Shown: positions 5,577 to 49,604 of the stretch, in pieces | How positions within the stretch are numbered: position 1 is the first letter of the stretch | How the letters are laid out: every line of letters starts with the position of its first letter | NCBI GenBank assembly: GCA_018650465.1 | Contig: JABIFY010000005.1 | Location: forward strand, 1-49,604 | Length of the DNA stretch: 49,604 nucleotides | Source of the DNA: Alphaproteobacteria bacterium | Lineage (GTDB): Bacteria; Pseudomonadota; Alphaproteobacteria; UBA2966 | Reading direction: 5' to 3' | Translations under genes and position numbers: made by a program | Notes under the pieces: generated by a model | What the model saw: only the letters and a program-made list of their open reading frames with translations | Told to the model about the DNA's origin: nothing | Databases searched by the model: none

Positions 5577-6089
5577 ATGAACATTCGCATGCTGAAAGCC
5601 ATTCTGATCTTACCGGGCACCGCACTGGTTTGGGTACCGGTCCTTGCCATCTGGTTCAGTCGAAATACGGTGTGGGCGGCAGACTTCACACCTGACGACA
5701 CAGGGCCGTGGCTTATGGCATTGCCGCTTGCCGCTGTCGGTATCTGGCTGATGAGATGGTCAGTGAGTATCTACAGGACAGAGGGCGGCGATGGCACCCC
5801 GGCACCGTGGGACCCGATCTCAAACTTCGTCGCCTCCGGGCCTTACCAATATGTCCGTAATCCCATGTTGATCGGCGTTATCCTGTTTCAGGGGGCAGAA
5901 GCGGCATACCTTCAGTCCTGGCCCGTATTCATCTGGATGCTGGTTTTTATCATTACCAACATGTTTTACTTTCCTCTGTCCGAAGAACCAGGCCTGGAAA
6001 AACGCTTTGGCGAAACCTATGTGCGCTACAAAGAAAATGTACCCCGCTGGATTCCACGCCTGACGCCATGGCAGCCACCTGAGCAATAA
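5577..6089 (+). CDS. isoprenylcysteine carboxyl methyltransferase-family membrane protein
   Basis: 170 aa integral membrane protein with about four to five hydrophobic segments (residues 10-30, 43-60, 100-135). The C-terminal half contains GPYQYVRNPMLIGV and the EEPGLEKRFGETYVRYKENVPRWIPRL block, the SAM-binding signature of the ICMT/phospholipid methyltransferase (PEMT) superfamily. Bacterial members are mostly uncharacterised small-molecule or lipid methyltransferases, so the substrate is unknown. The ATG is 38 nt after the aminotransferase stop, with AGAAAGG about 20 nt upstream. The gene lies between the lol/dat genes and dnaE. Confidence 0.8.
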   Translation: MNIRMLKAILILPGTALVWVPVLAIWFSRNTVWAADFTPDDTGPWLMALPLAAVGIWLMRWSVSIYRTEGGDGTPAPWDPISNFVASGPYQYVRNPMLIGVILFQGAEAAYLQSWPVFIWMLVFIITNMFYFPLSEEPGLEKRFGETYVRYKENVPRWIPRLTPWQPPEQ

Positions 6090-6141
6090 CTTACCCAGCA
6101 TCTGGTGTTCGATTCACACCTTATCCCCAACAAATTGTGTC

Positions 6142-6156
6142 GTTCTTACTCCGTTC
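6142..6156 (+). promoter_or_regulatory. LexA-box-like GTTC-N7-GTTC upstream of dnaE
   Basis: GTTC TTACTCC GTTC is an exact match to the alphaproteobacterial SOS-box core and sits 64 nt before the dnaE start. A weak -35 (TTGTGT at 6135-6140) lies immediately upstream, so the box would fall in the promoter spacer. The core has only 8 specified bases, so one or two chance matches are expected in a window of this size. Confidence 0.35.
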
Positions 6157-6220
6157 TGCTACTTCTGGAATTGCTGCCGTGCGATGATGAAGCGACACGA
6201 TATTAAGGGAAATGCCACAC

Positions 6221-9200
6221 ATGGCGCACGCTGAATTTGTTCATTTAAGAGTCCACACGGCCTATTCCTTGCTTGAAGGTGCCTTGCGCGTGGGAGAGCT
6301 TGTAAAGCTCTGCCAGGATAACGCCATGCCAGCGCTGGCCATGACGGATTCTGGCCATCTGTTCGGTGGAATGGAGTTCGCCGGGACCTGCATGAAAAGC
6401 GGTATTCAGCCGATCATGGGCACGGCTCTGGCAATTCGGCGTGAAGGCGGTAGTAGCGGTGCCTTCGCCGGAAGCGGGCAGGGCGCGCGCAAGCCGGAAC
6501 CTGACCGTCTGGTGCTGCTGGCTGCGAATGATACCGGTTATGACAACATCTCCAAACTTTCCTCAAAAGCCTTTCTCGATACACCGGCCGGAGAAACACC
6601 CCAAGTCTCTATTGCCGACCTTGAAACCCATGCCGAGGGCGTCATTGCCCTGACCGGTGGGGCAGACGGCCCTGTGGGAAGGCAATTGCAAGACGGTCAG
6701 CGCGACGCGGCCTTTGAACTGACCAAACGTCTGGCCGCCATTTATCCAGGGCGCTTGTATATCGAGTTGCAACGCCACGGCCAGCCGGAAGAAACCCGCA
6801 CCGAGCCTGGTTTGCTGGACATTGCCTATGATCTTGATCTGCCTCTGGTCGCCACAAATGAATGCTTTTTTCCGGACGAGAGCACTTATGAAGCCCATGA
6901 CGCCCTGATTTGCGTCTCGGATGGTGCCTATGTGTCTCAGGCAGACCGCCGCCATCTGACGCCGGAACATCGCTTTAAATCCGCGGAAGAGATGAAAGTC
7001 CTGTTCGCGGACTTACCTGAGGCATTCCACAATACTCTCGTCATTGCGCAACGTTGCGCCGCCCGTCCACCTTTGCGGGATCCGATCCTGCCTGGTTACG
7101 AAAGTGCCGAAGGCCGTGACGAAGAGACGGAAATGACGGCTCAGTCTCAGGAAGGGCTTGATCGATGCCTTGAAGCCCATGTTTTCACCGAAGATATGGA
7201 TGCGGCGCAGCGTGTAGAAGCCGCCAAACCCTATCAGGATCGTTTGAAGTTCGAACTGAACGTGATCATCGAGATGGGGTTCCCCGGCTACTTCCTGATC
7301 GTCTCGGACTTTATCAAGTGGGCCAAAGATCATGATATTCCGGTGGGGCCGGGACGTGGTTCGGGTGCGGGCTCGGTTGTGGCCTGGGCGCTTAGCATCA
7401 CCGATCTTGATCCTTTGAGGTTTGGCCTGCTGTTTGAGCGGTTTTTGAACCCGGAACGTGTGTCCATGCCGGATTTTGACATCGATTTTTGCCAGGACCG
7501 CCGCGATGAAGTGATTTCCTACGTCCAGGACAAATACGGCCACGACAAAGTCGCCCAGATTATCACATTCGGTAAGTTGCAGGCCCGTGCTGTGTTGCGG
7601 GACGTGGGCCGGGTGCTGGAGATGCCCTACGGCCAGGTAGACCGTATTTGTAAGATGGTGCCCAACAATCCGGCCAATCCCATGACCCTGGGCGAAGCAA
7701 TCCAGGCTGAAAGTGGTTTGCGCGATGAAAGGGATTCCGATCCGACCGTCGCGCGCCTGTTGCAGGTCGGACAGAAGCTGGAAGGGCTTTATCGCCATGC
7801 CTCCACCCACGCCGCCGGTGTGGTAATCGGCGACCGGCCACTGGATCAACTGGTACCGCTGTATCGTGATCCGAAATCTGATATGCCGGTGACCCAGTTC
7901 AACATGAAATATGTCGAAAGCGCCGGTCTGGTCAAATTTGACTTTTTGGGCCTGAAAACCCTGACCGTGATCGACAAAGCCGTCAAATTGATCCGCCAGC
8001 GCGGGGTTGAACTGGAAATTGATAAATTACCGCTGGATGACGCCAAAACCTATCAAATGCTGTCGCGGGGCGAAACGGTTGGCGTGTTCCAGCTGGAAAG
8101 TTCCGGCATGCGGGACGTGTTGCGTGGCATGCAGCCGGACGTTTTTGAAGATATTATCGCGCTTGTGGCGCTCTATCGTCCCGGTCCCATGGACAATATC
8201 CCGCGCTTTATCGCCACCAAAAAGGGCAAGGAACAGCCGGATTACATGCACGAGATGCTGAAGCCCCTGCTGGAAGAAACCTACGGCGTTATTGTCTATC
8301 AGGAACAGGTCATGCAAATCGCCCAGGTTCTGGCGGGCTACAGCCTCGGCGATGCTGATCTGTTGCGACGGGCCATGGGCAAAAAGATCAAGGCCGAAAT
8401 GGACGCTCAGCGTGCCATTTTTGTTAAAGGGGCGGTCGAAAACGGCGTCGAAAAGAAGCAAGCAAACACCATCTTTGATCTGGTGGACAAGTTTGCCGGT
8501 TACGGTTTTAACAAATCCCACGCCGCCTGTTATGCCCTGGTGGCCTATCAAACGGCCTGGCTCAAAGCCAACTATCCGGTGGAATTCCTCGCCGCTTCCA
8601 TGACGCTCGATTTAACCAATACGGACAAGCTGGGTATCTTCAAGGAAGAGGTTGAACGCCTCGGCATCGAATTGCGCAATCCCGATATCAACAAGTCAGA
8701 AGCCTTTTTCACGGTGGAAGATTTGACGGGTGAAAACGAAGGGGCGGTACGTTACGCCCTGGCTGCGGTCAAGAATGTGGGTCGCGCTGCAATGGATAGT
8801 GTAGTTGAAGAACGTATTGCAAATGGTTCATTTAAAACGATATTTGATTTTGCCGGACGCCTGGAATCTCGAGCCGTAAACAAGCGCCAATTGGAAAATC
8901 TCGCTCGTGCCGGTGCCTTCGATAATCTGGAAAAGAACCGTCACCGGGTGCATCAGTCCGCCGAAATCCTGGTACGCCACGCCAGTTCCGCGGCAGAAGA
9001 TCGGGCCAGCGGCCAGGAAAGTCTGTTTGGTGGAGCATCGGCTGGCATCGATGAGCCTGAACTGCCGACGGTTGCAGATTGGTCCTCAATGGAGCGTCTG
9101 AACAACGAGCGGGACGCTTTGGGATTTTATCTCTCGGCCCACCCGCTGGATATGTATGAACGTGATTTGAAACGCTTGGGCGCCAAAACCTGGGGCGAAG

Positions 9201-9712
9201 TGCTACCGACCCTGACCGAGACAGACAAAAACATTCGCCTCGGCGGTACGGTCATGGCCAAACAGGAACGCATGTCCAAACGCGGCAACCGCTTCGCCTT
9301 TGTGCAGTTCTCTGATTCCAGCGGTACATTCGAAGGCATGTTCTTCGCCGACGCGCTAACCAATGCCCGGCCCTTGCTGGAAACCGGTACAAACGTCGTC
9401 GTCGACATCGAAGCCCGCCTGGAAGACGACACGCCGCGAATTGGCGTGACGCGCATTCAGTTAATCGACAAACTGGTTGCAGATACGGCTGCAGGCTTGG
9501 AGATTCGCCTCAACTCACCCGACCCCCTGGCCCATATCTCCGAGGCGTTAAGCAAGGCGAAATCAGGCAAGGGCAGGGTAAAACTCTGGCTCAGCATCGA
9601 AAACGGCACCAGCGAAGTCGAAATCGACCTGCCTGGACGCTTTGCGATTACAGCAGAAGTCCGCGACAATGTGGCTGCGGCAGACGGGATACTGGAACTG
9701 CGGGACGTGTAG
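6221..9712 (+). CDS. dnaE: DNA polymerase III alpha subunit (replicative DnaE1)
   Basis: 1163 aa catalytic subunit of the replicative polymerase. It has an N-terminal PHP domain ([20 protein letters not shown], residues 5-24), the palm with the [15 protein letters not shown] catalytic aspartates near residues 415-425, the [13 protein letters not shown] motif near 652, helix-hairpin-helix and fingers ([23 protein letters not shown]) and a C-terminal OB fold (about 1005-1085). Length and the [10 protein letters not shown] motif match DnaE1, not the shorter mutagenic DnaE2. The ATG at 6221 is preferred to the in-frame ATG at 6212 because AAGGGA ends 10 nt before it. A LexA-box-like site lies upstream, and a decayed copy of this gene's 3' end lies at about 11276-11529. 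Confidence 0.97.
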   Translation: [1163 protein letters not shown]

Positions 9713-9713
9713 G

Positions 9714-9738
9714 GCGTTTCCGTTATGTTCGGAAATGC
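9714..9738. terminator. hairpin between convergent dnaE and HD-GYP genes
   Basis: GCGTTTCCG and CGGAAATGC form a 9-bp stem (one G-U pair) with a 7-nt loop, right after the dnaE stop and just before the stop of the minus-strand HD gene at 9740. There is no clear T-run, so termination efficiency is uncertain. Confidence 0.5.
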
Positions 9739-9739
9739 T

Positions 9740-11065
9740 CTAACCGGTTGCAGCTTCGGAGTCTATCAGCTCCACACTCTGCTGTGATTTTTCCCAGAAC
9801 TCACTGACATTCACGCTACTTTTGCTCTGCGCCTCCTTGCAGACCCTGTCCACGCGGGCATAATTTGTGTGCAAAATATTGACAATGCCAGCATCAACTT
9901 TGTTCCCGGCAAGCAATTCCTCGAAAATTTTCTCGATTTCATCGCGCTTCATACCTTTGCGATAGGGGCGGTCTTCGGTCAAGGCTGTGAAGATGTCAGC
10001 AACCATGACGATCCGCGAACCCAGGGGCAATTCTTCTTCAGCCAAACGGAATGGATACCCATCGCCCGAAAGTGATTCGTGATGGTGTGAGGCCCAGTCG
10101 GCTATCTCTTCAATGCCTTCAATCGATTCAAGGATACGTTGGGTATGATAGGTATGGGCCTGAATTACACGCCACTCTTCAAGATTAAGCTTGCCATTTT
10201 TTTCAAGAATTTCATTGGGGACAGCCAGTTTCCCGAGATCGTGTAAATAGCCTGCGATCAATACTTTCTGACAATCAGTGGGCGACATGCCACACAATTC
10301 GGCCAGTTCTCTTGAGCAGGCTGCAACGCCACTGGTGTGAAACGCCGTGAAACTGGAGCGCGTGTCGATAATAATCGCAAAAAACCGTGAGAGTTCAGCG
10401 AGGTCATCAAGATCAAGTTTGATCTCAGGTAACCTGGACAAATCATTCAGCTTTTTGTCAAGCGGCGCGAAATACATATCCAGCCAGAAAGCTTCCTTGC
10501 GGGAGACAGTCATAAAGGCCTCTACAAATGCTGGTACAAACCGGCTCCCTTCGCTGTCACTGATTATCTGCCGAATTTCCTCCACTTGTGAAAAAACAGG
10601 CTTGGACTTGTCGATCAGGACAGCAACCCTGTCGGCAAGGTGGATAATATGGCTGGCTTCAGGCACATCAATGCCCTGGAACTGTTGGCCCTCACCGTCA
10701 TTCCAGTCAACGTGATGAAACTGAATAATGGGGGCGAAGCCCGCGAATGGGGGAAAGCCGGAAACCAGTATTTTGCCAAGTTCTGCATGTAAATGGGGTG
10801 ATTTTTCTTCGTATTCCAGCAGTTTCAAACGATCTGCCACGGCAATGGCACCAATGTCATGAAGAACGGCAGCCATGAACATATCATTATATTCATTTTC
10901 AGGCATATCCAATTCCCCGGCAATGCTGCAGGCGATGTAGCAGGTCAATTTGTGATGATCATTCAGCGCCGGGTTTATGAGATCAAGGGCGGCCGATAAG
11001 GAAGTCATCATGCCAAACAAGGAAACCGAAACAGGGCCAGTGGCTTTGCCTGTGTTCTGTTTCAT
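9740..11065 (-). CDS. tandem HD / HD-GYP domain protein, probable c-di-GMP phosphodiesterase
   Basis: 441 aa, no signal peptide and no receiver domain. Two HD modules are visible. The first, residues about 35-130, has VLHDIG and a later FHHVDW; the second, about 255-390, has YLHDLGKLAVP, AHTYHTQRIL, HHHESLSGDGYP and MVADIFTALTEDRPYRK, the full HD-GYP pattern for cyclic-di-GMP hydrolysis with a metal centre. The N-terminal HD looks like a divergent copy that may be regulatory or a second hydrolase. Convergent with dnaE. The ATG at 11065 has little Shine-Dalgarno support. The signal and target are unknown. Confidence 0.85.
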   Translation of the reverse strand: MKQNTGKATGPVSVSLFGMMTSLSAALDLINPALNDHHKLTCYIACSIAGELDMPENEYNDMFMAAVLHDIGAIAVADRLKLLEYEEKSPHLHAELGKILVSGFPPFAGFAPIIQFHHVDWNDGEGQQFQGIDVPEASHIIHLADRVAVLIDKSKPVFSQVEEIRQIISDSEGSRFVPAFVEAFMTVSRKEAFWLDMYFAPLDKKLNDLSRLPEIKLDLDDLAELSRFFAIIIDTRSSFTAFHTSGVAACSRELAELCGMSPTDCQKVLIAGYLHDLGKLAVPNEILEKNGKLNLEEWRVIQAHTYHTQRILESIEGIEEIADWASHHHESLSGDGYPFRLAEEELPLGSRIVMVADIFTALTEDRPYRKGMKRDEIEKIFEELLAGNKVDAGIVNILHTNYARVDRVCKEAQSKSSVNVSEFWEKSQQSVELIDSEAATG

Positions 11066-11275
11066 TTAAAACTGGTCACTTTTGGCGGGAAGTACCGATT
11101 TGTAAAATGCACGTCTAGTTTCCTGTAAATGAGGCCTGATGATCTGCGACTTACCAATAATGAGAGATCACGCCTGTGGATTTCCTGACACAAGTAGTAT
11201 TCGGGATGTTTGTTTCTGGCGTATTTCAAGTAGATGTAGAAATGTGTCAGTAATATTTTGCCCCTCCCCAGGGCC

Positions 11276-11529
11276 GATGATCGTGCCAGTGATCAGGAAA
11301 GCACGTTCGGTGGACCAGGCCATGTGGGATCGACGACCCGGAACTGCCCACAGTCTGCGAAGCTCTCAGCAGGGCGAAATCAGGCAAGGGCAGGGTGAAA
11401 CTCCGGCTCAGCGTCGAAAACGGCACCAGCGAAGTCAAAATTCACCTGCCAGGCCGCTTTGTGATTGCAGCATAAGTGCGGGACAACGTTGCTGCGGCGG
11501 CTGGGATACCGGGGTTGCGGGACGTATAA
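11276..11529 (+). pseudogene. decayed, internally deleted copy of the dnaE 3' end
   Basis: Translation in two frames reproduces pieces of the intact DnaE at 6221-9712. DDRASDQESTFGG (frame of 11276) matches DnaE residues 926-938. Then, after a frameshift near 11325, IDDPELPTV matches about 943-951, fused directly to [15 protein letters not shown] and onward to RDV and a stop, matching 1108-1163. The last 171 nt (11359-11529) align to 9542-9712 without gaps at about 83% identity by hand count, with a nonsense TAA replacing the GAA of DnaE. About 465 nt of dnaE between the two blocks are missing. Weaker similarity may extend left to about 11216. It cannot encode a functional product. It looks like an old duplication or a replaced second dnaE. 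Confidence 0.9.
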
Positions 11530-11536
11530 ACGCACG

Positions 11537-11570
11537 AAACGGGTGAACATTACCCGTTTTGTGATTTTTC
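11537..11570 (+). terminator. intrinsic terminator after the dnaE relic
   Basis: AAACGGGT (11537-11544) and ACCCGTTT (11552-11559) form an 8-bp stem with a 7-nt loop, followed by TGTGATTTTT. It sits 8 nt after the stop of the dnaE relic, so it may be that gene's former terminator. In the other direction it could serve the enoyl-CoA hydratase gene that ends at 11630. Confidence 0.55.
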
Positions 11571-11629
11571 CCTTGCGGAATTGTCCGCCAGGACGGCCGG
11601 TAAGGTTATCTTGGCGGTTACAGCCGCTG

Positions 11630-12448
11630 TTACTTGTCCTGCCATTCGGGCATGTCACGTTTATTTAGAAAGGCGTCGATGCCATTGCGGGCATCTTCCT
11701 TTTGCAGGTTTCGTACGATAGCGGCGGCGCCTAATTTATAGGCTGTGTCCAGGCCTTCGTTGATTTGGGCGTAAAAAAGTTCCTTGCCAATGGCAATGGC
11801 AGCCCTTGATTTTGAAGCGATTTTGATTGCCATTTCATCCACAGCGGCATCAAGTTCGTCCAGTGGCACGACCTTGTTCAAGAGGCCCCATGACAGTGCC
11901 GTCGGGGCGTCAATCAGATCACCGGTCATCAACAACTCCATGGCCTGCTTGCGCGGCAGATTTCGGGTCACTGCGATCATCGGTGTTGAGCAGAAAAGGC
12001 CCAGATTAATGCCGGAAGTGCCAAAGCGTGAGGAATCCGCCGCGATGGCAAGATCGCATTGGGCCACCAACTGGCATCCAGCCGCGGTCGCCACGCCCTG
12101 AACCTTCGCAATAACAGGCTGAGGGATCGAAACAATGGTTTGCATCATGTGGGCGCACGTCGCCATCAGATGTTCCATGGGATCAACCGATGGATCCGAG
12201 TTGACTTCTGCGAGATCGTGCCCGGCACAAAAAGCGCGCCCGTTCGCCGCAATAACGATGACTTTTGCAGCTGGATCCTTGGCAATATTGTCCAGTGTTT
12301 CCTGCAGCATATTCAGCAGTCCCAGAGAAAGGCAGTTAAATTTGTCCGGGCGGTTCAAGGTCAGTGTCGTAATACCGTCTTTGTCTTCACGTAGAAGAGG
12401 TGCGGAAGTTACATCATAATGGGCGGATTTATTGGCGTTTTGGGGCAT
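11630..12448 (-). CDS. enoyl-CoA hydratase/isomerase family protein, ECHDC3-like
   Basis: 272 aa crotonase-fold enzyme expected to act on acyl-CoA thioesters. The core TLTLNRPDKFNCLS, the oxyanion-hole segment GRAFCAGHDLAEV, GVATAAGCQLVAQCDLAIA and the FGTSGINLGLFCST block are present. The GLFCSTP stretch lacks the usual PE glutamate of classical hydratases and matches the ECHDC3 subgroup, whose reaction is uncertain, so generic beta-oxidation hydratase activity should not be assumed. It is transcribed alone on the minus strand, divergent from rpsB across a 302-nt region. The N-terminus (MPQNANKSAHYD) is a short extension before the fold begins. Confidence 0.85.
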   Translation of the reverse strand: MPQNANKSAHYDVTSAPLLREDKDGITTLTLNRPDKFNCLSLGLLNMLQETLDNIAKDPAAKVIVIAANGRAFCAGHDLAEVNSDPSVDPMEHLMATCAHMMQTIVSIPQPVIAKVQGVATAAGCQLVAQCDLAIAADSSRFGTSGINLGLFCSTPMIAVTRNLPRKQAMELLMTGDLIDAPTALSWGLLNKVVPLDELDAAVDEMAIKIASKSRAAIAIGKELFYAQINEGLDTAYKLGAAAIVRNLQKEDARNGIDAFLNKRDMPEWQDK

Positions 12449-12559
12449 TGGGCGCGTCTCTCTTGCTGGATTTTTGGGTCGCTTTGCCCATTTATATCTG
12501 AAAAACAGCGGAGGGTGTCAATATTTAAGCTGTCCAGATGATACAAGTCGCCAAATCCC

Positions 12560-12588
12560 TTGCATTCCTTACCAAACAGGCGTAGAAA
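12560..12588 (+). promoter_or_regulatory. probable rpsB-tsf promoter and 5' leader
   Basis: TTGCAT (12560-12565), a 17-nt spacer and TAGAAA (12583-12588) give a reasonable sigma-70 promoter in the 302-nt gap before rpsB. Transcription would leave a leader of about 155 nt, rich in short inverted repeats (for example around 12650-12680), which could carry S2 autoregulation; this is inference. No gene is seen in the rest of the 12449-12750 gap. Confidence 0.45.
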
Positions 12589-12750
12589 CCCGGCTCGTGT
12601 TGCAATGTTGCGGCGCGATAAACCTCACGCGAGGACTGGATGCCCGGATTAAAAGTCCCGGGATGTCCCTCCGGTGTTTGACCCAAGACTAATTAATAGG
12701 GGTCGGATCACTTCCTCGCGGCGGATAAACCGGAAAAGGAGTTTCGCAGT

Positions 12751-13587
12751 ATGGCACTGCCAGAATTTACTATGCGCCAGCTATTGGAAGCCGGCGTTCA
12801 CTTTGGTCACCAAAAACATCGCTGGAATCCCCGTATGGGCCGCTATATCTTTGGCGCGCGCAACGGCATCCACATTCTTGATCTTCAGCAAACTGTACCG
12901 CTGTTGCGCAACGCCATGCAGGCTGTGCGCGACGTCGCCGCCAATGGCGGTCGTGTACTGTATGTTGGTACCAAGCGTCAGGCATCTGAAGCTGTTGCTG
13001 AAGCTGCCCGCATCAGTGGCCAGTATTACGTCAACCACCGCTGGCTTGGTGGCATGATGACCAACTGGCGTACCATTTCCAACTCCATCAAGCGTCTTAA
13101 AGTCGTTGATGAGCAGCTGGTAAGTGGTGATAGCTCAGGTCTGACCAAAAAAGAATTGCTGCAATTGACCCGCGAGCGCGACAAGCTTGAGCGCGCCCTG
13201 GGCGGCATCAAGGAAATGGGCGGTCTTCCGGACATCATCGTTTGTATCGATACAAACAAGGAAGAGCTGGCCATTCAGGAAGCCGTTAAACTGGGTATTC
13301 CGGTTATTGGCGTGATCGACAGTAACTCAAGCCCTGCAGGCATCACCTATCCGATCCCCGGCAATGATGACGCCCTGCGCGCCATTACATTGTATTGTGA
13401 TCTGATTGCCCGCTCGGTTCTGGACGGTATTCGTGAAGAAATGACTTTGCTGGGTGAAGACCTGGGCGAAGCCATGGAAGCACCGGTTGAAGACCTTCCG
13501 GAAGAAGTTGTTGAAGAAGTCGCACCTGAAGCAGCAGCGGAAGTTGTTGCTGAAGTTACCGCTGAAGAGCCAGCAGCAAGCGCCTGA
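12751..13587 (+). CDS. rpsB: 30S ribosomal protein S2
   Basis: 278 aa small-subunit protein, recognised along its length: [20 protein letters not shown] near the start, [54 protein letters not shown] and [26 protein letters not shown]. The last 45 residues form an acidic Glu/Ala/Val-rich tail, a common alphaproteobacterial extension beyond the E. coli length. A strong AAAGGAG lies 8 nt before the ATG. The tsf gene follows after 167 nt, the usual rpsB-tsf arrangement. Confidence 0.98.
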
Positions 13588-13754
13588 TTTAAAATAATAA
13601 AATCGGTATCTTGACCTTTTGGATTAAGGTGTCTGTTTTGGTGTTTACGAATACGAATATCGGGGTGACGGAAACGTTGCCCCCTTATTCCATTCAGGTG
13701 ATCCGTTGAAACGAACAAATTGTGAAATCGCTTTGATAGCGTGAGGAAAAGAAA

Positions 13755-14681
13755 ATGGCACAGATAACAGCTGCCCTGGTCAAAGAACTGCGTGAGCGCA
13801 CAGGCGCCGGCATGATGGACTGTAAAAAAGCCCTTGGTGAAAACGACGGCGACATGGAGCTGGCAATCGACTGGTTGCGCAACAAAGGCCTTGCGGCTGC
13901 CGCCAAGAAGGCCGGCCGTGTTGCTGCTGAAGGCCTTGTTGGTCTCGCCAGCGGCGACGGCATTGGTGTTCTCGCTGAAGTGAACTCGGAAACAGATTTT
14001 GTTGCCAAGAACGACACTTTCCAGGAATTCGTGAAAACCGTTGCCGGTATGGCGATGGACGCAGATGGCGATTACGACAAAGCCATGGCAACCGCATTCC
14101 CCGGTGGTGAAGGCACGTTAGCCGATGAGGCCGCCAAGATGGTCGGCACAATCGGCGAAAACATTCAGGTGCGTCGTATGGCGGCCCTGAAAGCAAATCC
14201 CGGTATTGTCGCTACTTACATGCACAATGCCACTGCCGCCGGCGTCGGCAAAATCGGTGTTCTCATTGGTCTGAAGTCGGAAGGTGACAAGGATCAGTTG
14301 ATGGCGCTGGGCAAACAGCTGGCCATGCACGTTGCAGCCACCAAGCCACAGGCAGCAACAACAGCTGAACTGGACCCGGCTGTTGTCGAGAAAGAGCGCA
14401 CATTCCTGATCGAGCAAGCCAAAGAATCCGGCAAGACCCAGGAAATTGCTGAAAAGATGGTTGAAGGCCGTATCCGCAAGTTCTTCTCAGAAGTTGTTCT
14501 GGCCGAGCAAACCTTTGTTATTGATAACGAAACAAAGATTTCAAAGGTCATCGAAAATGCTGCCAAGGAAATTGGCTCACCTATCGAACTGGTTGGTTTT
14601 GTCCGCCTGGAACTGGGTGAAGGCATCGAGAAAAAAGAAGAAGACTTTGCCGCTGAGGTCGCTGCTGTTGCAGCAGGCTAA
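13755..14681 (+). CDS. tsf: elongation factor Ts
   Basis: 308 aa nucleotide-exchange factor for EF-Tu. The N-terminal module (residues 1-50) has [17 protein letters not shown], followed by the core with [28 protein letters not shown] (the TDFV contact to EF-Tu) and the C-terminal [26 protein letters not shown] block. Length is normal for alphaproteobacteria. GAGGAAAAG precedes the ATG. The upstream 167-nt gap has a TTGACC-like -35 near 13612, so tsf may also have its own promoter. Confidence 0.98.
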
Positions 14682-14752
14682 GTCTCCAGAATAATACCAT
14701 TTTTCGCCTTCGCCGGGCTTCGCCTGGCCAGGAGATTAGTGTAGAGTTTGAG

Positions 14753-14781
14753 CGCCCGGCAGTGGTTACACTGTCCGGGCG
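14753..14781 (+). terminator. GC-rich hairpin between tsf and pyrH
   Basis: CGCCCGG/CCGGGCG (14753-14759 with 14775-14781) plus an inner CAGTG/CACTG pair give a stable stem with one bulged T. It lies 72 nt after the tsf stop and 46 nt before pyrH. Only GTTCT follows, so it may attenuate rather than fully terminate transcription into the pyrH operon. Confidence 0.4.
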
Positions 14782-14827
14782 TTCTGCAACCCGCAGACTT
14801 GTCAAATTACCAGTCGAGAAGACCCTT

Positions 14828-15565
14828 ATGCCTGATGCTTTCAAATACCGCCGCGTCCTTCTGAAACTTTCAGGCGAGGCGCTGATGGGTGATGGGGAGT
14901 ACGGCATTGATCTGGCGACGGTTGAGCGCATTTCCGCTGACGTGAAAGCTGTCCATGACCAAGGCGCAGAAGTCTGTCTGGTTATCGGTGGCGGTAATAT
15001 ATTCCGTGGCATTGCCGGTGCTGCCGCCGGTATGGAACGCGCTAGCGCAGATTACATGGGCATGTTGGCGACAGTCATTAATGCCTTGGGTGTGCAAAAT
15101 GCCCTTGAGCAATCCGGTGTTCCGACCCGTGTTATGTCGGCAATCCCCATGTCGACCGTTTGCGAGCCTTATTTGCGCCGGCGTGCCGTTCGACATCTGG
15201 AAAAAGGCCGGGTCGTGATTTTTGCTGCCGGGACAGGAAATCCATTTTTTACGACAGACACGGCTGCCGCCTTGCGTGCCGCCGAGATGAATTGCGATGC
15301 GTTGCTTAAGGGCACGCAGGTGGACGGCGTTTATACTTCTGATCCAAAAACCAACCCTGATGCCACCAGATATGATAGTCTCAGCTATCTTGAAGTTTTG
15401 GCGAAGGATTTGCGGGTCATGGATGCCTCGGCAATCAGTCTGGCACGGGAAAACAAAATACCAATTCTGGTCTTTTCCATTCATAATTCCGGTGCCTTCG
15501 CAGAAGTGCTGAAGGGCGGCGGACTTCGGACAATAATAACAGAAGGGGAGACGGATCGTGGCTGA
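14828..15565 (+). CDS. pyrH: UMP kinase
   Basis: 245 aa. It phosphorylates UMP to UDP in pyrimidine nucleotide synthesis and belongs to the amino-acid-kinase fold. [14 protein letters not shown] opens the protein, [10 protein letters not shown] and [24 protein letters not shown] follow, and [19 protein letters not shown] and [13 protein letters not shown] lie in the second half. ATG 14828 was chosen over an upstream in-frame ATG at 14762 because it gives the family start ([18 protein letters not shown]) and the upstream extension lies in the hairpin. It starts the envelope operon, and its stop lies inside frr's start (overlap 8 nt). Confidence 0.97.
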
Positions 15566-16115
15566 ACCCGATATTGACGATATTGAGCGCCGCATGAAGG
15601 GTGCCCTGGAGATGCTGAAAAAGGAATTCGGCGGTTTGCGGACAGGTCGTGCATCAGCCAGCCTGGTGGAACCCATCGTTGTCGACGCCTACGGCAGTCC
15701 AACTCCTTTGAACCAGGTCGCAAATATCAACGTGCCCGAACCACGTATGTTGACGGTTCAGGTCTGGGACAAGACCTTGGTCAAATCCGTCGAAAAGGCC
15801 ATAAACAATGCCGGTCTGGGGCTCAATCCATCCACAGAAGGTCAGCTTATCCGCCTGCCTATACCGGAACTGAACGAAGAACGACGTCTGGAATTGAGCA
15901 AAATTGCTGGAAAATATTCTGAAGAAGGGCGGATTTCTGTCCGTAACGTGCGTCGTCACGGTATGGACGAGTTGAAGAAAATGGAAAAAGACGGGGATAT
16001 TTCCAAGGACGAACATCACATGTGGGGTGATGAAATCCAGAAATTGACCGATGATACCATCGCCAGTATCGATGAAGCGCTGGCGGCCAAAGAAACGGAT
16101 ATCATGAAGGTCTGA
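15558..16115 (+). CDS. frr: ribosome recycling factor
   Basis: 185 aa. It releases ribosomes from mRNA after termination, together with EF-G. The family start ([20 protein letters not shown]), [37 protein letters not shown] and the C-terminal [21 protein letters not shown] block are all present and length is exactly typical. The GTG start has AGGGGAG 6-7 nt upstream and overlaps the pyrH stop (GTGGCTGA), so the two are translationally coupled. Confidence 0.97.
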
Positions 16116-46505: not shown

Positions 46506-46814
46506 TCAGGCAGCGGGGCCTGCTGAGGCAATCTGTTTTGGAACGCTTTCCCAAGCTTGGCCGCTGGCAACGACACAAGACATACCGTCGGTTTTTGTCA
46601 TCAGGATTGTCCAGCTGCCTTTCATGGACGTTAATACTTCGATGACAGCGCCGTTATTGATCAGGCCGATACCCGAAGTGGTTTCCTTGTAGGTTGCGTC
46701 CAGACGTGTGACGAATTCGGCGCGTTTGCCACAAACCTGCTGTGCCTCTGCGACAGAGGTAAATGATGTGGCCATTAATGCGACGACGGTAACTCCATAC
46801 AACAATTTAAACAT
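46506..46814 (-). CDS. small secreted protein, paralogue 1 of a tandem pair
   Basis: 102 aa with a signal peptide (GVTVVALMATSFTSVAEA, cleavage after AEA). The mature domain is about 80 residues with two cysteines (QQVCGKR and DGMSCVVA) and the pattern YKETTSGIGLINNGAVIEVLTS, GSWTILMTKTDGMSCVVASG, WESVP. The function is unknown; similar small secreted proteins are common in alphaproteobacteria. It closely matches the product of 47132-47440 and is read in the same direction, so it arose by tandem duplication. ATG 46814 has a near-perfect AAGGAGG. A longer in-frame start would destroy the signal peptide. Confidence 0.72.
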   Translation of the reverse strand: MFKLLYGVTVVALMATSFTSVAEAQQVCGKRAEFVTRLDATYKETTSGIGLINNGAVIEVLTSMKGSWTILMTKTDGMSCVVASGQAWESVPKQIASAGPAA

Positions 46815-46903
46815 AGTATCCTCCTTCACACTTAGGTGTTTCAGTTTTGTTCTGAAACCAGGTGACCGCAAGGCCTTGAAAGGCGGTGCAGGTATGAAAC
46901 GAG

Positions 46904-47125: not shown

Positions 47126-47140
47126 TCAGCCTCAGGCTGA
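47126..47140 (-). terminator. hairpin overlapping the stop of paralogue 2
   Basis: TCAGCCT and AGGCTGA form a perfect 7-bp stem around one base (47126-47140), reading into ATTTTC on the minus strand. It begins within the stop codon of paralogue 2. A one-base loop must open partly, so this is a modest terminator at best. Confidence 0.35.
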
Positions 47141-47440
47141 GGGGCTTTTGACCAGCGTTTTTGGGACATCTTCCCAGGAACTGCCGGTCGCAACGACGCA
47201 AGACATCCCGTCAGGTTTGGTCACCAAAATCGTCCAGGAACCTTTTTCAGAGGTCAGAATCTCAAGAACACTGCCATTGTTGACCAGTCCGAGCGCGACT
47301 GTATTTTCTTTGAAGTTGCCAGCCAGTTGTTCAAGGAACCTGGCTCTTTCACTGCAGACCGCTTGCGCCATCGCTGTGGTTACGAAAGTTGTGGTCGCGA
47401 ATGCCGTCAAAGCGATGGCAGTTGCCATAATACGTAACAT
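47132..47440 (-). CDS. small secreted protein, paralogue 2 of a tandem pair
   Basis: 102 aa, the same length as paralogue 1 (46506-46814). The signal peptide (ATAIALTAFATTTFVTTAMA) is followed by QAVCSERARFLEQLAGNFKEN (shown nearly whole), GLVNNGSVLEILTSEKGSWT, ILVTKPDGMSCVVATGSSWE. The cysteine positions, the GLxNNGxVxExLTS core and the DGMSCVVA block are shared, and the coding DNA is also visibly similar. ATG 47440 was chosen over GTG 47446 because AGGAGG has the correct spacing. Function unknown. Confidence 0.72.
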   Translation of the reverse strand: MLRIMATAIALTAFATTTFVTTAMAQAVCSERARFLEQLAGNFKENTVALGLVNNGSVLEILTSEKGSWTILVTKPDGMSCVVATGSSWEDVPKTLVKSPSA

Positions 47441-47604
47441 GCTCACCTCCTTGACCCTTCCGGGTCGAAAATGCCCTGTTTTGGGGCGGTTCCCGTTATT
47501 ACTGGCAATACTTATGCCAGATAAGCGTCAACTAGATATATTTCAAAGCAAAAATATTACTAAATAATTAACTATAGATGTCGATTAATTGCTTGTTAAC
47601 TATT

Positions 47605-48768: not shown

Positions 48769-48858
48769 GGAGAGTTGGCCGAGTGGCTGAAGGCGCTCCC
48801 CTGCTAAGGGAGTAAGGGCTAACGCCCTTCGAGGGTTCGAATCCCTCACTCTCCGCCA
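48769..48858 (+). tRNA. tRNA-Ser(GCT)
   Basis: 90 nt including the encoded CCA end. Acceptor stem GGAGAGT/ACTCTCC, discriminator G, anticodon GCT at 48803-48805 in a 7-nt loop CTGCTAA with stem CTCCC/GGGAG, a long class II variable arm (GGGCTAACGCCC region), and T-loop GGTTCGAATCC. It reads AGC/AGU serine codons. Its 3' end abuts the scar of an integrated element, which is a common use of tRNA-Ser genes as attachment sites. Confidence 0.97.
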
Positions 48859-48923
48859 TTTTCCGAATTTCCTTCGATATCATAACACCTTAACCCCACT
48901 CAGGGGTGGTGTGCTTCCCGACT

Positions 48924-48945
48924 GGTACAGAAAACAGGTACAGAA
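48924..48945 (+). repeat. direct repeat GGTACAGAA x2 next to the tRNA
   Basis: GGTACAGAA occurs at 48924-48932 and 48937-48945, 66 nt past the tRNA end, in the spot where arm-type integrase sites lie in tRNA-inserted elements. A small CCCC/GGGG hairpin (48894-48906) precedes it. Confidence 0.5.
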
Positions 48946-48955
48946 GGGGATATTA

Positions 48956-48979
48956 ATGGCTATTCCGCGTGTTCGATAA
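48956..48979 (+). pseudogene. seven-codon gene stub, possible integrase 5' relic
   Basis: A strong GAAGGGG Shine-Dalgarno sequence (48943-48949) is followed by an ATG reading MAIPRVR and then TAA. Primase homology in another frame begins at about 48973, exactly where this stub ends. Elements in tRNA genes usually carry the integrase gene here, often beginning with a short basic stretch, so the stub may be the remaining start of such a gene after a deletion. This is inference. Confidence 0.35.
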
Positions 48980-49604
48980 CAGGCAATTTTAACGCCCATA
49001 TGCAAGCCAAGCTGTTTGTTCAGGCAGAAGAAGCTATTTGGGGCGGCGACAAAAAGGCCGAAGGAATTCTGAAAGACACTATCACTGGTGAAACGACCAA
49101 TATCGAAAAAAAAGGAATTGACGTAATCACAGTTCGGAATTTTGCCCGGCTGGGCATAACCAGCAACAACAATTGGGTTGTTCCTGCGGGCCCGGAGGAA
49201 CGGCGGTTTTTTGTTCTCGATGTTTCCGATACCCACATCCAGGACAAGACGTATTTCATGGCCCTCTATGATCAGATGGAAAATGGTGGCTACGAAGCTT
49301 TGCTCCACTACCTGGAAAACTACGATTACTCCGACATCGATTTGAGAGCCATTCCGTACACTTCAGCCCTGTTGGAGCAAAAAATTTACAGCTTGGGTCC
49401 GGTTGCAAAGTTTTGGTATGAAGCGCTTGAACGAGGAACAATTGGACCTGATGAGTATAGCTGGCCAGACTTCGTCGTAAAAGACGATCTGCGGGATAGT
49501 TATTGCGAATCAGCAGGGAAAGCTGGCCAAGGATATAAAGGTTGGCAAACAGAATTCGGTAAAGCACTCAATCAATTTTGTCCGGGAATTCAGTCGAAGC
49601 GGAA
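48973..49604 (+). pseudogene. 5'-truncated DUF5906 primase/helicase of an integrated element (continues past window)
   Basis: The reading frame is open from 48886 to the edge with no ATG before 49000 and no likely GTG or TTG start. Recognisable sequence starts SITGNFNAHMQAKLFVQAEE, then AIWGGDKKAEGILKDTITGE, NFARLGITSNNNWVVPAGPE, RRFFVLDVSD and YFMALYDQMENGGYEALLHY, the C-terminal ATPase half of phage and plasmid primase-helicases of the NrS-1-like DUF5906 family. The Walker A part and the entire primase domain that should precede are absent, so this copy is cut at its 5' end near the tRNA. Whether it is intact downstream cannot be seen. Confidence 0.82.

Follow-up and report, generated by a model that had tools for sequence, protein, structure and literature searches.

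A probable relic of a DUF6538-integrase element in tRNA-Ser(GCT) of an alphaproteobacterium, and the arm-site geometry by which it can be recognised

Two described groups of mobile elements are among the systems closest to the locus considered here. The integrases of HE-PICI are accompanied by a doubled motif, with one copy at 81 +/- 2 bp and a co-oriented copy at 132 +/- 2 bp from the attP centre; the integrase arm domains, AlpA or another protein have been suggested as its binder, and, as far as the available part of that report goes, the motif was not found in other PICIs (PMC10111431). PICMI satellites are defined by the genes int and alpA together with a primase recognised by DUF3987 and DUF5906 models, according to the available portion of their description (PMC10803314).

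The locus to be compared with them closes a stretch of 49,604 nucleotides (the window) from an Alphaproteobacteria bacterium (GCA_018650465.1, contig JABIFY010000005.1, here C90), whose draft genome consists of 163 contigs and 4.80 Mb and is rated 98.9% complete. The initial annotation had placed there a tRNA-Ser(GCT) followed by the junction of a deleted integrative element. ARAGORN does call an intact tRNA-Ser(GCT), the integration target, at 48769..48858 on the plus strand, and it is the sole tRNA called in the window. Its 3' end plus six bases makes up the proposed 20-bp att core (CTCACTCTCCGCCATTTTCC, 48845..48864, plus strand), of which an exact match search of the 4.8 Mb draft returned only 48845-48864 and C81:6741-6760. 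With two mismatches one more copy appeared, beside tRNA-Ser(GGA) on contig C111; the reversed control pattern gave no match in the same draft, and the exact core was absent from viral_contigs in a pattern scan. The expectation of an att repeat was borne out in part: the core does occur exactly twice, but attR, or any right end of the window element, was not found in the draft, where the contig stops about 625 bp past the junction, and linkage of the second core on C81 to the window element is not assembled. The end of the window coincides with the end of C90 (49,604 bases), so that the right side is unassembled and not merely unread. As a separate observation, two small proteins are encoded side by side on the minus strand of the window, at 46506-46871 and 47132-47446; they are paralogues (BLOSUM62 local score 272), and the N-terminus of each is signal-like.

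The paired repeats that had been noted 3' of the tRNA are two copies of GGTACAGAA on the plus strand, at 48924..48932 and 48937..48945, with a period of 13; scored as a doublet they reach 8/8, at +65 from the tRNA end. A function as arm-type sites is suggested for both by their conservation (9/9 each) in C81 and by the geometry of tRNA-linked DUF6538 integrases described below. Taken alone, such a pair is uncommon but can arise by chance: of the 49,595 positions of the window, 20 have an exact 9-mer that recurs within 30 bp. Between the repeats and the next start codon lies the ribosome-like site (AGGGG) already reported, and then the stub MAIPRVR (48956..48979, plus strand), whose seven codons run from the ATG at 48956 to the TAA at 48977-48979. 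The gap of 97 bp between tRNA and ATG compares with 66-115 bp in nine of 12 compared loci, the other three giving 156 and, from spurious frames, 303 and 321.

The junction can be confined to the interval 48970..48978 (plus strand), between the fading of identity to the C81 integrase start past 48969 and the onset of helicase homology at 48976. What follows, at 48976..49604 on the plus strand, is a remnant of a DUF5906 primase-helicase (D5/VapE-like SF3), identified through PF19263, PHROG 1156 and 1829 (DNA primase) and alignment. Of the Walker A and Walker B parts expected in a DUF5906 protein it has the Walker B part only, being a fragment of a member. The claim that the frame starts in mid-protein agrees with the Pfam match, which covers profile positions 36-114 of 114 (E 1.8e-14), with positions 1-35 missing, while its start, previously put at about 48973, has to be moved slightly, homology beginning at ITGNFN with codon 48976. 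Of the 166 homologues, 154 have H, Y or Q immediately before the ITG motif, where the window has S, and this places the joint near 48975/48976; an overlap of two or three bases between stub end and helicase start is possible. All 154 complete homologues extend upstream of ITGNFN, by a minimum of 29 residues and in at least 144 of them by at least 224 (every tenth sorted value: 29, 224, 237 ... 626). DUF5906 frames with just 33 and 29 residues before the ITG motif were seen in a Desulfuromonadales MAG (L057) and in Bradyrhizobium (L126), and these are possibly further truncated helicases.

The remnant frame, as had been stated, is open to the window edge (209 codons, with none of 5000 base shuffles staying open); it contains an in-frame ATG at 49000 and has a GC content of 46.7% vs 53.0% for the window. 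Residues N6, R76 and R77, invariant in 166/166 homologues, are kept. Its Walker B reads AEEA, with E18 shared by 21 of the 166, G23 by nine and T35, unique to the window, by none. At three columns (D18E, A23G, L35T) the remnant is unlike all six aligned homologues and the other rows are so at 1-3, so that there is neither an excess nor a deficit of unusual residues. The 209-aa fragment used as a single query found no relatives in genome_contigs or viral_contigs; alignment-based scans of both did find them, and the homologue sets are the best 80 of 107 and the best 80 of 363. In a tree of 164 rows the remnant sits on a long branch (0.96) inside a clade of 76 rows, supported by an SH-aLRT of 98, in which IMG/VR viral contigs and records from alphaproteobacteria abound; the C81 protein falls outside this clade. 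The best homologue of the remnant is about 50% identical. The C81 helicase was considered as its parent and rejected, being 44-46% identical and in another clade.

Contig C81 (6.9 kb), with the second copy of the core, offers the closest comparison within the same genome. Left of the core and on the minus strand it encodes an integrase with Arm-DNA-bind_3, Phage_int_M and Phage_integrase domains, a short protein that weakly matches a DNA-binding PHROG and that we take to be alpA-like, a RepB-type primase and a 470-aa DUF5906/VapE protein. Right of the core there is a GGTACAGA doublet, at +64 from the tRNA end, and then, at the contig end, the opening codons of an apparent further integrase, MAIRRLNYL. 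With an element on the left and a doublet and integrase start on the right, C81 is interpreted as the junction of a putative tandem array at this target, in which two elements, one of them satellite-like, would meet at a copy of the window core. In the alignment with the window the core agrees at 20/20 positions, the repeats at 9/9 and 9/9, and the DNA between core and repeats at 35/59; 13 of 14 positions are identical over 48956-48969, and past 48969 4/10 agree. Arm-type protein-binding sites together with a shared integrase start would give such a pattern. Beyond the primase end, both satellite-like elements have a frame that we take to be IHF/HU-like (L005 775-930 and L037 462-737), and the one on C81 looks shortened.

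A different situation was observed in a sister species (L028 1501-1541; G003:C35:5907-5947), where only the first 41 bases of tRNA-Ser(GCT) are found, 100% identical. The fragment runs into an element in which a 387-aa frame, putatively integrase-like by its position, ends facing the tRNA; the 3' half of tRNA-Ser(GCT) was absent among the matches in that draft. Either the missing half is unassembled, or this tRNA may serve a further element that recombines within its anticodon arm.

For the stub, the most fitting interpretation is that a tyrosine integrase of the DUF6538 type begins there. Seven residues are insufficient alone for this identity, and the DUF6538 domain proper would begin just past them; the assignment is built on the seven codons taken together with the arm-site geometry and the locus architecture. 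The stub resembles MAIRRLNYL of C81 and MGEYRLDYL of the G353 element (PF20172, E 1.3e-14). Comparison with integrase N-termini, proposed as a check by the initial annotation, favours the same identity, since position, doublet geometry and N-terminal similarity all fit tRNA-linked DUF6538 integrases. A P4-type integrase (Arm-DNA-bind_3; cf. C111 and G003:C9) was also considered for the stub and dropped, as DUF6538 integrases lie behind the same doublet in G353 and G007. Within the draft itself DUF6538 domains occur only on C157 and C161, with no orphan domain; both are features in their own right, an integrase after tRNA-Gly (L362, G000:C157) and another after a stretch that is tRNA-like by eye (L383, G000:C161), cut by the contig end at 8672.

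A doublet partner outside this genome is the G353 element (L226, G353:C6, about 5998-15713), of about 9.6 kb, whose ends are direct repeats of 142 nt, 89% identical and spaced by 9,574. Inside one end stands GGTACAGAAAACTGGTACAG and inside the other, co-oriented, GGTACAGAGAACTGGTACAG. The GGTACAGAAAACTGGTACAG doublet precedes an integrase beginning MGEYRLDYLVRRG, with DUF6538 (E 1.3e-14) and a SAM-like domain; its 365 codons gave no match to a catalytic domain, even with E values of up to 0.1 allowed. The element further carries genes for a UvrD-like helicase and for a protein of the radical-SAM type.

The exact pattern GGTACAGA-N5-GGTACAGA occurs at five places in 385 class genomes (the window, C81, G353, G007 and G021), and its reversed control at one. 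In G353 it sits before the DUF6538 integrase just described, in G007 between a tRNA-Glu and a 53-aa DUF6538 stub (E 2.1e-11), and in G021 it has no adjacent integrase. When the DNA at 48845-48979 was compared with the same 385 genomes it matched itself, C81 and otherwise just short stretches of 23-25 bases, of which two cover the doublet in G353. When viral_contigs was scanned for looser doublets (spacing 3-6), at least 120 stretches were returned; there was no match in viral_contigs for the stricter doublet-plus-start pattern or for the exact junction sequence. Among 126 doublet loci, including G353 and the class matches, the known G353 integrase alone was flagged by a narrow regular expression, which missed the G007 stub too. 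It was also considered whether truncation is the rule behind the exact doublet, the window, G353 and G007 all being truncated (three of three judgeable among the four class-sample loci). This idea was rejected because G013, which lies outside the class sample and belongs to the same order as G007, has the exact GGTACAGA doublet beside a tRNA-Glu with a DUF6538 frame of 562 aa.

Searched for as a family, DUF6538 is present in 31 of 191 genomes, compared with none of 14 control genomes. From the 41 matches listed, 30 loci were fetched and the stretch from tRNA end to domain was scored in the 22, one of them in the own genome, that have an ARAGORN tRNA near the domain, eight being left out. In 14 of these 22 the best repeat is an 8-mer doublet of at least 7/8 with a period of 12 (five loci) or 13 (nine), at +51 to +66 bp past the tRNA, a range into which the window (+65) and C81 (+64) fit. 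The other eight are without a clear doublet; they include C157 of the own genome (6/8), L369, scored on a 20-bp context and counted as a miss, and L381, likewise a miss, which reaches 7/8 at period 13 only at +164. When the window, C81 and L381 (with its doublet at +164) are included, 12 of 24 contexts reach 7/8 at period 13 vs a mean of 0.6 in shuffles, which were run at this period only; at the other periods the counts are nine for 12, three for 11, two each for 10 and 9, one for 14 and none for 15-19. The sequence of the doublet is variable (GGTACAG, TGCTAAAG, CTGCTACA, GATCGTTA, TGCTAACA) and its position near constant. Locus L371 is the G007 stub, which the doublet pattern had also led to. 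Loci L383-L392 are outside the count, and L384, L388 and L392 among them have period 13 (7/8, 7/8 and 8/8). A 635-aa DUF6538 frame in G016 stands at tRNA-Ser(GCT), the same target as in the window. In a doublet check among DUF5906 loci (five rows, two internal to one protein), two of three real integrase starts have a period-12 doublet and L073 has none.

Taking these data together, it is proposed, with a confidence just short of even, that DUF6538 may serve a large class of integrases that target tRNAs as their arm-DNA-binding domain. Every such integrase would read a doubled 8-mer of its own, with a period of 12-13 bp and a set distance to the tRNA end. The att arms specific to an integrase could then be read off genomes, as could relics that homology searches miss because they are too short. 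A literature search for DUF6538, limited in extent, found no paper.

Intact relatives, with which a comparison had been suggested, show what the window would have looked like. In three Geomonas loci a tRNA (Ser-CGA, Gln-TTG and Leu-TAG), a DUF6538-type integrase and a DUF5906 primase follow each other on one strand; the first two have Pfam matches to DUF6538 and Phage_integrase and to Prim-Pol and DUF5906, and the third a local profile and a DUF5906 match. Their integrases begin some 5.9, 5.1 and 5.2 kb upstream of the position equivalent to 48976, and two of the three have a period-12 doublet. Similarly, with P4-type integrase queries, 18 of 24 matching DUF5906 loci (C81 and two pairs of duplicate records included) have an integrase upstream on the same strand. 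Judged by its gene order, the window would equal an intact layout minus the stretch from the first integrase codons to the middle of the helicase. These same-strand layouts support the deletion from the integrase start into the primase gene that the initial annotation had postulated.

The locus is thus probably the relic of a phage-like element with a DUF6538 integrase, integrated in tRNA-Ser(GCT) and later reduced by an internal deletion from about integrase codon 7 to mid primase-helicase. Such an element would have entered the 3' end of the tRNA, its tyrosine integrase binding the doubled GGTACAGAA arm sites and recombining at the 20-bp core. One internal deletion would then yield the observed join (its length would be about 5 kb in an element laid out like those of Geomonas), since in intact elements the integrase lies by the tRNA and the DUF5906 primase on the same strand. 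Without an integrase the left end could not excise by its own means; the tRNA would have stayed intact, and the rest of the element would be decaying in a tRNA site that also hosts other elements. We infer a single deletion and a loss of mobility.

It has also been contemplated that the deletion spanned two tandem elements, with the stub coming from one and the helicase from its neighbour, and the internal att core being lost. C81, where two elements appear to meet at a copy of the window core, lends this some weight, as does the placement of the window helicase in a clade other than that of the satellite-like C81 protein, and the accessible part of the HE-PICI report (PMC10111431) raises the possibility that a PICI/prophage tandem underwent a deletion extending over its att site. 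However, the order and strand of integrase and helicase are those of single intact elements, so that one element suffices, and a two-element origin is considered unlikely.

Rather improbable is an assembly chimera, in which the join at 48970-48978 would be false and a contig tail of about 600 bp misjoined. The junction does lie about 625 bp from the contig end, and C81 and C161 also end within integrase starts, as if such regions were assembled badly. Nevertheless, a chimera would normally leave the remainders of both genes on other contigs, and neither was found in this 98.9% complete draft: DUF5906 is present only on C90 and C81, so that the draft contains neither the absent portion of the helicase nor a further copy of it, and all 12 Phage_integrase matches are in frames of at least 296 aa, so that none looks like a cut-off remainder. 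The absence of both remainders argues against a simple chimera, as do the last 25 bases of C90, for which the draft has no other match even when two mismatches are allowed, and a join that keeps the order and orientation expected of one element. Finally, a domesticated or still expressed helicase piece, for instance through re-initiation at the ATG at 49000 after the stop at 48979, would agree with the open frame, the conserved invariant residues and the ribosome-like site upstream of the stub, but is very improbable, because Walker A and the upstream half are gone, unusual residues are neither in excess nor in deficit, and a recent deletion accounts for the open frame equally well.

Returning to the single-element relic, it is in itself ordinary, a further example of an element that would have become immobile in a tRNA site once its integrase was lost. 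The transferable part is the arm-site geometry of the DUF6538 integrases, through which att sites may be located, and likewise integrase relics whose shortness hides them from homology searches; the main use of this relic is that a stub of seven codons could be identified through that geometry.

With respect to known systems, the nearest remnant is that of G007, a genome of the same order, which like the window has a tRNA, here tRNA-Glu, the GGTACAGA doublet and a truncated 53-aa DUF6538 stub; unlike the window, it has no primase in the approximately 1.3 kb inspected downstream. Among intact elements, those of Geomonas silvestris (NZ_BLXX01000003.1, L135) and Geomonas edaphica (NZ_SSYB01000001.1, L069) share with the window the succession of tRNA 3' end, doublet, integrase start and same-strand DUF5906 primase. 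Their doublets have a period of 12 and sequences unlike that of the window (in L135 the doublet overlaps the first listed ATG), and their integrase and primase frames are long, whereas the window is without nearly the whole integrase and half of the primase. As regards PICMI, the gene set of the C81 element is roughly similar; the PICMI prototype, as described in the available portion of the source, adjoins fis in Vibrionaceae, unlike the window, on whose piece of two truncated genes no alpA was seen and whose helicase groups with many viral contigs (PMC10803314). HE-PICI, as far as the accessible part of the report describes them, differ from the window in motif sequence, integrases and hosts, and a counterpart of their distal copy would lie beyond the assembled window. 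They nonetheless resemble it in having a doubled motif by the att site, the distance in the window from motif centre to core centre being 80 bp; the HE-PICI motif as printed has a period of 12 by our count, and G353, like HE-PICI, has two co-oriented motif copies (PMC10111431).
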